A stretch of DNA of 45,156 nucleotides from NCBI RefSeq assembly GCF_002727125.1, contig NZ_NHOA01000109.1, forward strand, positions 1 through 45,156, read 5' to 3'. Both the position numbers and the translations under genes were made by a program. Shown here piece by piece: positions 3,590-9,434 of this stretch. Position 1 is the first letter of the stretch. The number at the start of each line of letters is the position of its first letter. The DNA comes from Halorubrum persicum (GTDB taxonomy: Archaea; Halobacteriota; Halobacteria; Halobacteriales; Haloferacaceae). Under the pieces are notes generated by a model that saw only the letters and a list, made by a program, of their open reading frames with translations, did not search any database and had not been told where the DNA came from.

Positions 3590-5410
3590 TCAGGTGGAGT
3601 AGTAGTACTCGCCCTCGCGCTTCTGCGAGCTGTCGAGCTGCGAGCCCGGCTTGTTGATCCGGGGGCGGCCCGTCCGCTCGTCGCGGCGGAAGGTGATGTC
3701 CAGGTCCGCGAGGAACTCGTTCATCCCGTCGCGCATCTCCTGGGGCGGAGTCGCGTGCCCGCGCTCGGCCGGCTCGCCGTCGAACACCATCAGGCGGTCC
3801 GCGAGGAGATCGATCATGTAGATGTCGTGGTCGATCACCATCACGGTCGCGTCGTGATTCTCGGCGTACCGGCGGATCGCGGTCGTCGCGCGCACCCGCT
3901 GTTCCACGTCGAGGTGGGCGGATGGCTCGTCGAGGAGGTACAGGTCGGCGTCCTCGGAGAGACACGCCGCGATGGCGACGCGCTGGCGCTCCCCGCCCGA
4001 CAGGTCCGAGAGGTTCTGCTCCATCACGCGGTCGAGCTGGAGCGGCTGAGCGATCTCGGCGTTCCAGTAGGAGCTGCCGAACTCGTCGGTGATCGAAGAG
4101 AGGAAGGCGTCGACGCGCATCGGCTGGTCGATGTCGATGTACTGCGGCTTGTACGAGATGTCGAGCGCGAAGTCGAGCTCGCCTTCGTCGGGCTCAAGCG
4201 AGCCCGCGAACAGCTTCGCGAGCGTCGACTTCCCGATCCCGTTCGGGCCGACCACGCCGAGCACCTCGGAGCGGTTGATTTCGCCGCCGTCGACGTGGAG
4301 CTCGAACTCGCCGTCGCCGTACGACTTCGAGAGCTCGGGGTACTCGATCAGCGTCTCGCTGCGCGAGGAGACCCGCGGCGCGTGCTCCTCGAAGGTGATC
4401 GCGGACGGTCGGATCCGCATGTTCTCGTTGTCCAGATACCCTTTCAGGTACTCGTTGATCCCGTTGCGGACCGACTTGGGATCGGTGATGACCCCGTACG
4501 CCCCCGGCTCCCCGTACGCGACGTGGAGGGTGTCGGCCAGGAGATCGAGGATGGCGAGGTCGTGCTCGACGACGAGCATCGAGCGCTCGGCGGTGTCGTC
4601 GTCCGCGAGCTCGCGGATGAGCCGCGCGACGACCATCCGCTGGCCGATGTCGAGGTACGGCGTGATCTCGTCGAGGAAGTAGAAGTCGGCGTCGCGGGCG
4701 AGACACGCCGCGATGGCGACGCGCTGCAGCTCGCCGCCGGAGATGGAGTCGATCGGCTGGTCCATCACCGGCGCGATGTTGAGCCGGTCGATGAGGGAGT
4801 CGAGCGCGCCGCGCTCGTCGGTGCGCTCCAGCAGCTCGCGCGTGTTGCCGTCGAACTGGTTCGGGATCTGGTCGACGTACTGCGGCTTGCGCGCGACCGT
4901 CACCTCACCCTCCTTCAGCGATTCGAGGTAGTTCTGCAGCCCGGTGCCGCGGAACCGGTCGAGCACGCGCTCCCAGTCGCCCTCCGACTCGTGGTCGCCG
5001 AGGTTCGGGACCATCTCGCCGGCGAGCGCGTGGACCGCGGTCGACTTCCCGATCCCGTTCGGGCCGAGGATGCCGGTGACGTTGCCCGGTTTCGGCGTCG
5101 GGAGCCCGTACAGCGAGAAGGCGTTGTCGCCGTAGCGGTGAACCGGGTCCTCGTCGAGCTCGGAGGGGAGGTTGATGATCTCGATCGCGTCGAACGGACA
5201 CTTCTCGACGCAGATCCCGCAGGTCTCACCGAGGCAGATCTCCTCGGAGATGTGAATCTGGTCCGGGTCGCCCTCGACCGCGTCTTCGCCGCGTTCGGTA
5301 ATGCACTCCTTCCCCGTCCGGTTGGGCGGGCAGTAGTTCGCGCACTCGTAGTTACACCGGTCAGGCTGGCACCGATCGAGGTCGACGACGGCGATGCTGT
5401 CGTCCGCCAT
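3590..5410 (-). CDS. ABCE1/RLI-type ribosome biogenesis and recycling ATPase
   Basis: This 606-residue soluble ABC ATPase splits terminated ribosomes into subunits and is nearly universal in archaea and eukaryotes. It starts with the double 4Fe-4S domain: cysteines at 14, 19, 23, 27 and 36, then 59, 64, 67 and 71 (CLGETCGICVEKCPF). Two nucleotide-binding domains follow, each with Walker A GPNGIGKST. Signature motifs are SISGGELQRVAIA and LSDLSGGERQRVAIA, and Walker B sequences are YFLDEITPYLD and YLLDEPSAHLD. The frame is open 11 codons further upstream, but the ATG at 5410 gives the family N-terminus. The gene is one base downstream of the EMC6-like gene on the same strand, so the two are almost certainly co-transcribed. 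Confidence 0.97.
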   Translation of the reverse strand: MADDSIAVVDLDRCQPDRCNYECANYCPPNRTGKECITERGEDAVEGDPDQIHISEEICLGETCGICVEKCPFDAIEIINLPSELDEDPVHRYGDNAFSLYGLPTPKPGNVTGILGPNGIGKSTAVHALAGEMVPNLGDHESEGDWERVLDRFRGTGLQNYLESLKEGEVTVARKPQYVDQIPNQFDGNTRELLERTDERGALDSLIDRLNIAPVMDQPIDSISGGELQRVAIAACLARDADFYFLDEITPYLDIGQRMVVARLIRELADDDTAERSMLVVEHDLAILDLLADTLHVAYGEPGAYGVITDPKSVRNGINEYLKGYLDNENMRIRPSAITFEEHAPRVSSRSETLIEYPELSKSYGDGEFELHVDGGEINRSEVLGVVGPNGIGKSTLAKLFAGSLEPDEGELDFALDISYKPQYIDIDQPMRVDAFLSSITDEFGSSYWNAEIAQPLQLDRVMEQNLSDLSGGERQRVAIAACLSEDADLYLLDEPSAHLDVEQRVRATTAIRRYAENHDATVMVIDHDIYMIDLLADRLMVFDGEPAERGHATPPQEMRDGMNEFLADLDITFRRDERTGRPRINKPGSQLDSSQKREGEYYYST

Positions 5411-8810: not shown

Positions 8811-9434
8811 ATGGGGATCCTCGAGGACAAGTCGAACGCCCGGGTGTTCTACAAGTACCTCTCGAAGGTGTACGACAAGATCAACTGGTTCAACTGGAAC
8901 GAGGAGATGCGCGCGGAGGCGCTCTCGTGGCTGGAGTTCGGCGACGATCCGAAGGTGATCGACGTGGGGTGTGGCACCGGGTTCGGCACCGAGGGGCTCC
9001 TCGAACACGCCGACGACGTGCACGGGCTCGACCAGAGCGTCCACCAGATGGAGAAGGCGTTCGAGAAGTTCGGAAGACACGACCGCGTGAGCTTCTACCG
9101 CGGCGACGCCGAGCGGCTCCCGTTCCGCGACGACACGTTCGACGTGGTGTGGTCCTCCGGCTCGATCGAGTACTGGCCGAATCCGATCGAGGGGTTACGA
9201 GAGCTCCGCCGCGTCGCGAAGCCGGGCGGGCAGGTGCTCGTGGTCGGCCCCGACTATCCGCACAACCGCGTCCTCCAGCGGGTCGCCGACGCGATCATGC
9301 TCTTCTACGACGAGGAGGAGGCCGACCGGATGTTCGAGGCCGCCGGCTACGAGACGTACGAACACCACATCCAGCAGTCGACGCCGCGGAGCCCGCGTGC
9401 GATCACGACGGTCGCACGGGTCCCCGAACGGTAG
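8811..9434 (+). CDS. SAM-dependent methyltransferase, VTE3/MenG-like (probable quinone methyltransferase)
   Basis: A 207-residue class I methyltransferase. Motif I is VIDVGCGTGFG at 49-59, the acidic loop is LDQSVHQ at 74-80, and motif II is GDAERLPFRDDTFDVV. The sequence SSGSIEYWPNP at 116-126 and the LDQS-HQ segment closely match what I remember of the plant plastid MPBQ/MSBQ methyltransferase VTE3 (plastoquinone and tocopherol synthesis), whose archaeal affinity has been reported. Haloarchaea make menaquinones, so methylation of a naphthoquinone ring is the likely role (inference). The start region ARVFYKYLSKVYDKINW also fits this subfamily. It is a single gene, divergent from the unknown acidic protein. 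Confidence 0.88.
   Translation: MGILEDKSNARVFYKYLSKVYDKINWFNWNEEMRAEALSWLEFGDDPKVIDVGCGTGFGTEGLLEHADDVHGLDQSVHQMEKAFEKFGRHDRVSFYRGDAERLPFRDDTFDVVWSSGSIEYWPNPIEGLRELRRVAKPGGQVLVVGPDYPHNRVLQRVADAIMLFYDEEEADRMFEAAGYETYEHHIQQSTPRSPRAITTVARVPER

Follow-up and report, generated by a model that had tools for sequence, protein, structure and literature searches.

A VTE3-type methyltransferase of Halorubrum persicum as the probable last enzyme of menaquinone biosynthesis

The window analyzed here, a stretch of 45,156 nucleotides from Halorubrum persicum, contains an open reading frame whose product, designated P0001, is probably the archaeal VTE3-type demethylmenaquinone C-methyltransferase, the enzyme of the MenG step. 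By sequence, P0001 and plant VTE3 are truly related, whereas UbiE/MenG are remote from P0001. P0001 would bind SAM in its Rossmann fold and place a methyl group on the ring of a prenylated naphthoquinol, which is the last step of menaquinone synthesis, with the VTE3-type enzyme standing in for canonical UbiE/MenG. Haloarchaea, with their classical Men route to the ring, and Archaeoglobi-like archaea, with the futalosine route, would have this late enzyme in common. A VTE3-type enzyme would fill the last menaquinone step in archaea that lack a canonical MenG, and an archaeal family is named from which the plastid enzyme for vitamin E and plastoquinone can be traced. The H. persicum protein, a relative of that plant enzyme, most likely methylates the organism's own vitamin K-type respiratory quinone. 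The family, the predicted fold class, the distribution in one phylum and the lack of a canonical MenG over its cut-off are results of the analysis, and the substrate and the methylated position of P0001 are what we infer.

The reading frame runs from ATG to stop, and its GC contents at codon positions 1/2/3 are 0.65/0.39/0.94, like those of other likely genes of the window; the frame is a real gene and encodes a class I SAM methyltransferase. Its features are as follows:

8811..9434, + strand: coding sequence of a VTE3-type class I SAM methyltransferase, 207 aa, putative ortholog of Haloferax HVO_0309 (menG)
8955..8984, + strand: SAM motif I, VIDVGCGTGF, residues 49-58
9027..9047, + strand: LDQSVHQ, residues 73-79
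9153..9185, + strand: SSGSIEYWPNP, residues 115-125, family signature, with GSIEYWP invariant in alignment A2

D74, which lies within LDQSVHQ and is invariant in alignment A2, is presumably, as is usual for this fold, the acidic residue that closes strand 2 and binds the ribose of SAM. Pfam assigns a SAM methyltransferase domain to P0001, and PF01209 is above its cut-off. The predicted structure is an ordinary class I methyltransferase fold (pLDDT 86); a fold search, headed by Haloferax Hvo_0019 and with yeast Coq5 at rank 38 (TMq 0.71), showed no preference for quinone methyltransferases and was not discriminating. Elsewhere in the window, positions 3590-5410 encode an ATPase resembling RLI/ABCE1, in which Fer4_RLI and ABC transporter domains are present.

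The sequence-only reading had matched SSGSIEYWPNP and LDQSVHQ to VTE3, and both peptides were confirmed as signatures common to P0001 and VTE3. Arabidopsis VTE3/APG1, the MPBQ/MSBQ methyltransferase (At3g63410, Q9LY74), shares GSIEYWP, DQSxHQ and 43% identity over the catalytic domain (182 residues) with P0001, as measured on a provisional VTE3 sequence; this single sequence stands in every VTE3 alignment and tree described here. Its letters are supported by the Haloferax orthologs, which show 44.3-44.9% identity to them, in agreement with the printed value of 44% for HVO_0309 versus At3g63410. The score between VTE3 and P0001 ranges from 107 to 125 bits depending on the choice of query. Shuffling P0001 1000 times gave at best 24.6 bits in a script that scored the real pair at 107 bits, so the likeness is not due to chance. 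GSIEYWP was found in 81/81 haloarchaeal proteins (the window and 80 kept loci of a genome scan), and in the tree set it occurs in VTE3, 26/26 haloarchaeal, 20/20 Archaeoglobi-like and 2/2 plasmid rows, versus 0/11 other methyltransferases of the same archaea and 0/3 outgroups. P0001 thus carries the signature and aligns over the whole domain with the provisional VTE3 sequence. That sequence is longer at both ends, by a transit region at the N terminus and an extension at the C terminus, whereas P0001 stops after the methyltransferase domain. The substrates would differ as well: those of VTE3 are benzoquinols on the way to tocopherol and plastoquinone, according to PMC5159609, and P0001 is proposed to act on menaquinone.

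Canonical UbiE/MenG membership was considered for P0001 and rejected. UbiE/MenG/COQ5 (TIGR01934, PF01209) shares with P0001 the superfamily and probably the reaction, but P0001 scores 69.4 bits against the TIGR01934 cut-off of 158.35, VTE3 itself scores 62 bits, and the UbiE/MenG group stands apart in a tree that includes VTE3 (100/98), as expected from the earlier claim of kinship with VTE3 instead of UbiE/MenG. VTE3 and E. coli UbiE are 28% identical over 103 aa. Among the 25 NCBIfam models listed, of 39 matching P0001, none was passed at its cut-off. The description of the archaeal type as unrelated to the cyanobacterial enzyme was too strong. The cyanobacterial MPBQ/MSBQ methyltransferase sll0418, which catalyzes the reaction of VTE3 (PMC5159609), is likewise a class I SAM methyltransferase; in a provisional Synechocystis sequence only the SAM-binding core aligns with P0001, with 38% identity over 98 residues.

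Both the VTE3 match with the menG label of HVO_0309 and the archaeal origin of VTE3 are already in print. Table 7 of PMC8305020 (2021) gives HVO_0309 of Haloferax volcanii as menG with At3g63410 as homolog (44%) and marks their isofunction as "yes/no", and a passage of the 2016 review PMC5159609, which rests on Cheng et al. 2003, derives VTE3 from archaea rather than cyanobacteria. HVO_0309 appears to be the ortholog of P0001 through the orthologs of other Haloferax species, which are 70-72% identical to P0001. This orthology is supported by the neighborhood, since two Haloferax loci share the downstream stretch from pilin to etfBA. A single late enzyme below two ring-making routes was not found stated in the accessible parts of the open-licence literature, where no biochemistry or mutant experiment on the enzyme was found either.

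When genome contigs were scanned with P0001 as a single-sequence query, 100 relatives were confirmed and 80 kept, whose record titles indicate haloarchaea or halophilic archaea, one reading just "uncultured archaeon A07HR67". A scan of viral contigs gave 27 pattern matches and 0 relatives of P0001. At 1e-40, a match is present in 115/116 relatives (own genome included) and in 92/92 of those with good quality, mostly as a single copy. Across the phylum, sampled evenly, 108/295 genomes matched at 1e-25, comprising 60 haloarchaea (the own genome and relatives as distant as its order), 45 members of family f14, 2 of f33 and 1 of f18, with best scores of at least 199 bits save for G272 (f14, 105) and G024 (f18, 93). 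Families f14 and f33 are the two Archaeoglobi-like ones with orthologs. The 20 non-matching genomes listed all lie outside the order; the list leaves out a further 167. This distribution covers one phylum, and the relatives are not independent. Family f14 is probably Archaeoglobaceae, judging by MqnC and dsrA, which pass their cut-offs in 14/14 and 8/14 of the f14 genomes tested, respectively. One genome (G177) carries a divergent second VTE3-like methyltransferase (L172 8980-9723, also L147), which is 40% identical to P0001 and lacks GSIEYWP.

The link with menaquinone was assessed in 47 genomes chosen from the phylum sample. Of these, 26 have the gene (10 haloarchaea and 16 members of f14/f33) and 21 were counted as lacking it, made up of the weakly matching G024 and the 20 non-matching genomes listed; absence of the gene was thus a matter of choice, and the pathway markers were the test. 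MenB was over its cut-off in 10/10 haloarchaea, 0/16 f14/f33 genomes and 0/21 genomes without the gene, and MqnC in 0/10, 16/16 and 3/21, respectively. Four f14/f33 genomes have MenB-like matches that, at 297-319 bits, fall short of the MenB cut-off (342.7). Because MenB marks the haloarchaea and MqnC the f14/f33 genomes, the gene seems to serve below two ring-making routes. A menaquinone marker (MenB or MqnC) is therefore found in 26/26 genomes with the gene versus 3/21 without it, counts that come from related genomes and are not independent. Canonical MenG/UbiE was over its cut-off in 0/47 chosen genomes and also not in the own genome; the best UbiE-like match among the 47 (140.8 bits, under 158.35) belongs to G025, which has no menaquinone marker. 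In the genomes tested that have the gene, a menaquinone pathway marker thus goes with the lack of any other MenG over the cut-off, which bears out menaquinone methylation as the likely role, as the sequence-only reading had proposed. Against it, G010, G020 and G030 pass the cut-off for MqnC but have neither a VTE3-type gene (at 1e-25) nor a canonical MenG (at its cut-off). Also against it, MenB of the own genome lies on another contig and does not adjoin the VTE3-type gene. As for the products, PMC13386864 assigns ordinary MK to Halobacteriales and saturated-chain MK to Archaeoglobus fulgidus.

Two other functions were weighed. That P0001 acts on some other prenylated compound, or adds surplus methyl groups to menaquinone, while another methyltransferase performs the MenG step is unlikely. 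Methylated menaquinones occur in some Natrialbaceae, which counts in favor of such a role, as do the benzoquinol substrates of VTE3 and a Halomontanus plasmid copy of the gene that adjoins a UbiA-family prenyltransferase. That prenyltransferase, however, fits NF009516, a model with no stated substrate; moreover, the near-universal presence of the gene in relatives, mostly in one copy, and the lack of a canonical MenG over the cut-off, both noted above, argue for the MenG step. Even less probable is a role as an RlmA-like 23S rRNA m1A methyltransferase, predicted in 2008 for HVO_0309, which Table 2 of PMC2584109 lists for m1A628 on weak homology with E. coli RlmA. NF008300 does match P0001, but its 37.6 bits are far below the cut-off of 303, and the kinship with VTE3 is far stronger. 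An rRNA enzyme would not need menaquinone markers, yet the gene follows them. The 23S rRNA role is thus less likely than the MenG step, and demethylmenaquinone methylation remains the preferred reading.

Regarding the origin of the plant enzyme, the trees hold one provisional plant VTE3 sequence on a long branch and one archaeal phylum, which is too narrow to decide the donor. In a tree with outgroups, several of which have very long branches, VTE3 joins the Archaeoglobi-like rows (100/99), and VTE3, all archaeal VTE3-type rows and the paralog L147_para form a group (90/90); the haloarchaea are not a single group there, and branches are weak. In a tree without outgroups, all 26 haloarchaeal rows lie on one side of a 100/98 branch, the Archaeoglobi-like group has 98/90, and VTE3 attaches between both groups on a branch of 2.34, the bootstrap not being settled. 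The addition of two plasmid copies enlarged the haloarchaeal side to 28 rows, still at 100/98, and left the outcome unchanged.

The earlier proposal that plants drew on the family of the haloarchaeal protein holds for the archaeal VTE3-type family and is not supported for haloarchaea as the donor, because VTE3 lies outside all 26 haloarchaeal rows in the tree without outgroups. As a demonstrated donor, haloarchaea were rejected, since VTE3 falls outside both the haloarchaeal and the Archaeoglobi-like groups, with a haloarchaeal origin not formally rejected by the AU test. That plants took VTE3 from haloarchaea themselves appears very unlikely. The VTE3 form DQSxHQ is shared with 25/26 haloarchaeal and 0/20 Archaeoglobi-like rows, and the AU test retains VTE3 with 17 crown haloarchaeal rows (p 0.087), but it also retains VTE3 with f33 (p 0.30), VTE3 being one provisional long-branch row in both tests. 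The sequence closest to VTE3 is Archaeoglobi-like (L128, f33; 49% identity over 191), and the VTE3 form SAGSIEYWP occurs in 20/20 Archaeoglobi-like rows and 1/26 haloarchaea. We infer the direction of any transfer to plants. Tentatively, and with slightly more doubt than confidence, Halobacteria and Archaeoglobi may be viewed as natively methylating menaquinone with the VTE3-type enzyme, which was kept below differing upstream ring routes (classical versus futalosine), with plastid VTE3 coming from an archaeal lineage near the split of the two groups and not from haloarchaea.

The gene neighborhood was considered as a hint of function and set aside, as pilin and ETF genes in haloarchaea and translation genes in Archaeoglobi-like archaea say little on function. 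Downstream in haloarchaea, among 89 loci, some of which are incomplete, there recur genes for a pilin (71 loci), an unknown protein (73) and an HTH-like protein (70), followed by two ETF genes (54 each); pilin and ETF are named by Pfam, the HTH-like protein by eye. In Archaeoglobi-like loci, the commonest neighbors are S6e, an IF2-type factor, NDK and an L7Ae-family protein, mostly translation genes; in 16/20 of these loci (L127-L146) the gene adjoins a conserved gene of ~130 aa, of which the one scanned was ribosomal protein S6e.

Plasmid-borne copies of the VTE3-type gene occur in two Halomontanus rarus strains (L171 13992-14621, L170 8992-9621), and a further copy lies on pNVE414 of Natrinema versiforme (L169 3998-4657). 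The Halomontanus copy adjoins, in opposite orientation, a gene annotated as a prenyltransferase, which is UbiA by Pfam and passes NF009516; in the Natrinema plasmid stretch (8.5 kb), no prenyltransferase was seen among the frames listed. The copy of H. rarus TS33 shows 75% identity to P0001; in the tree it clusters at 100/99 with two rows of Halorubrum type and the copy on the Natrinema plasmid. These plasmid copies suggest transfer between haloarchaeal families.
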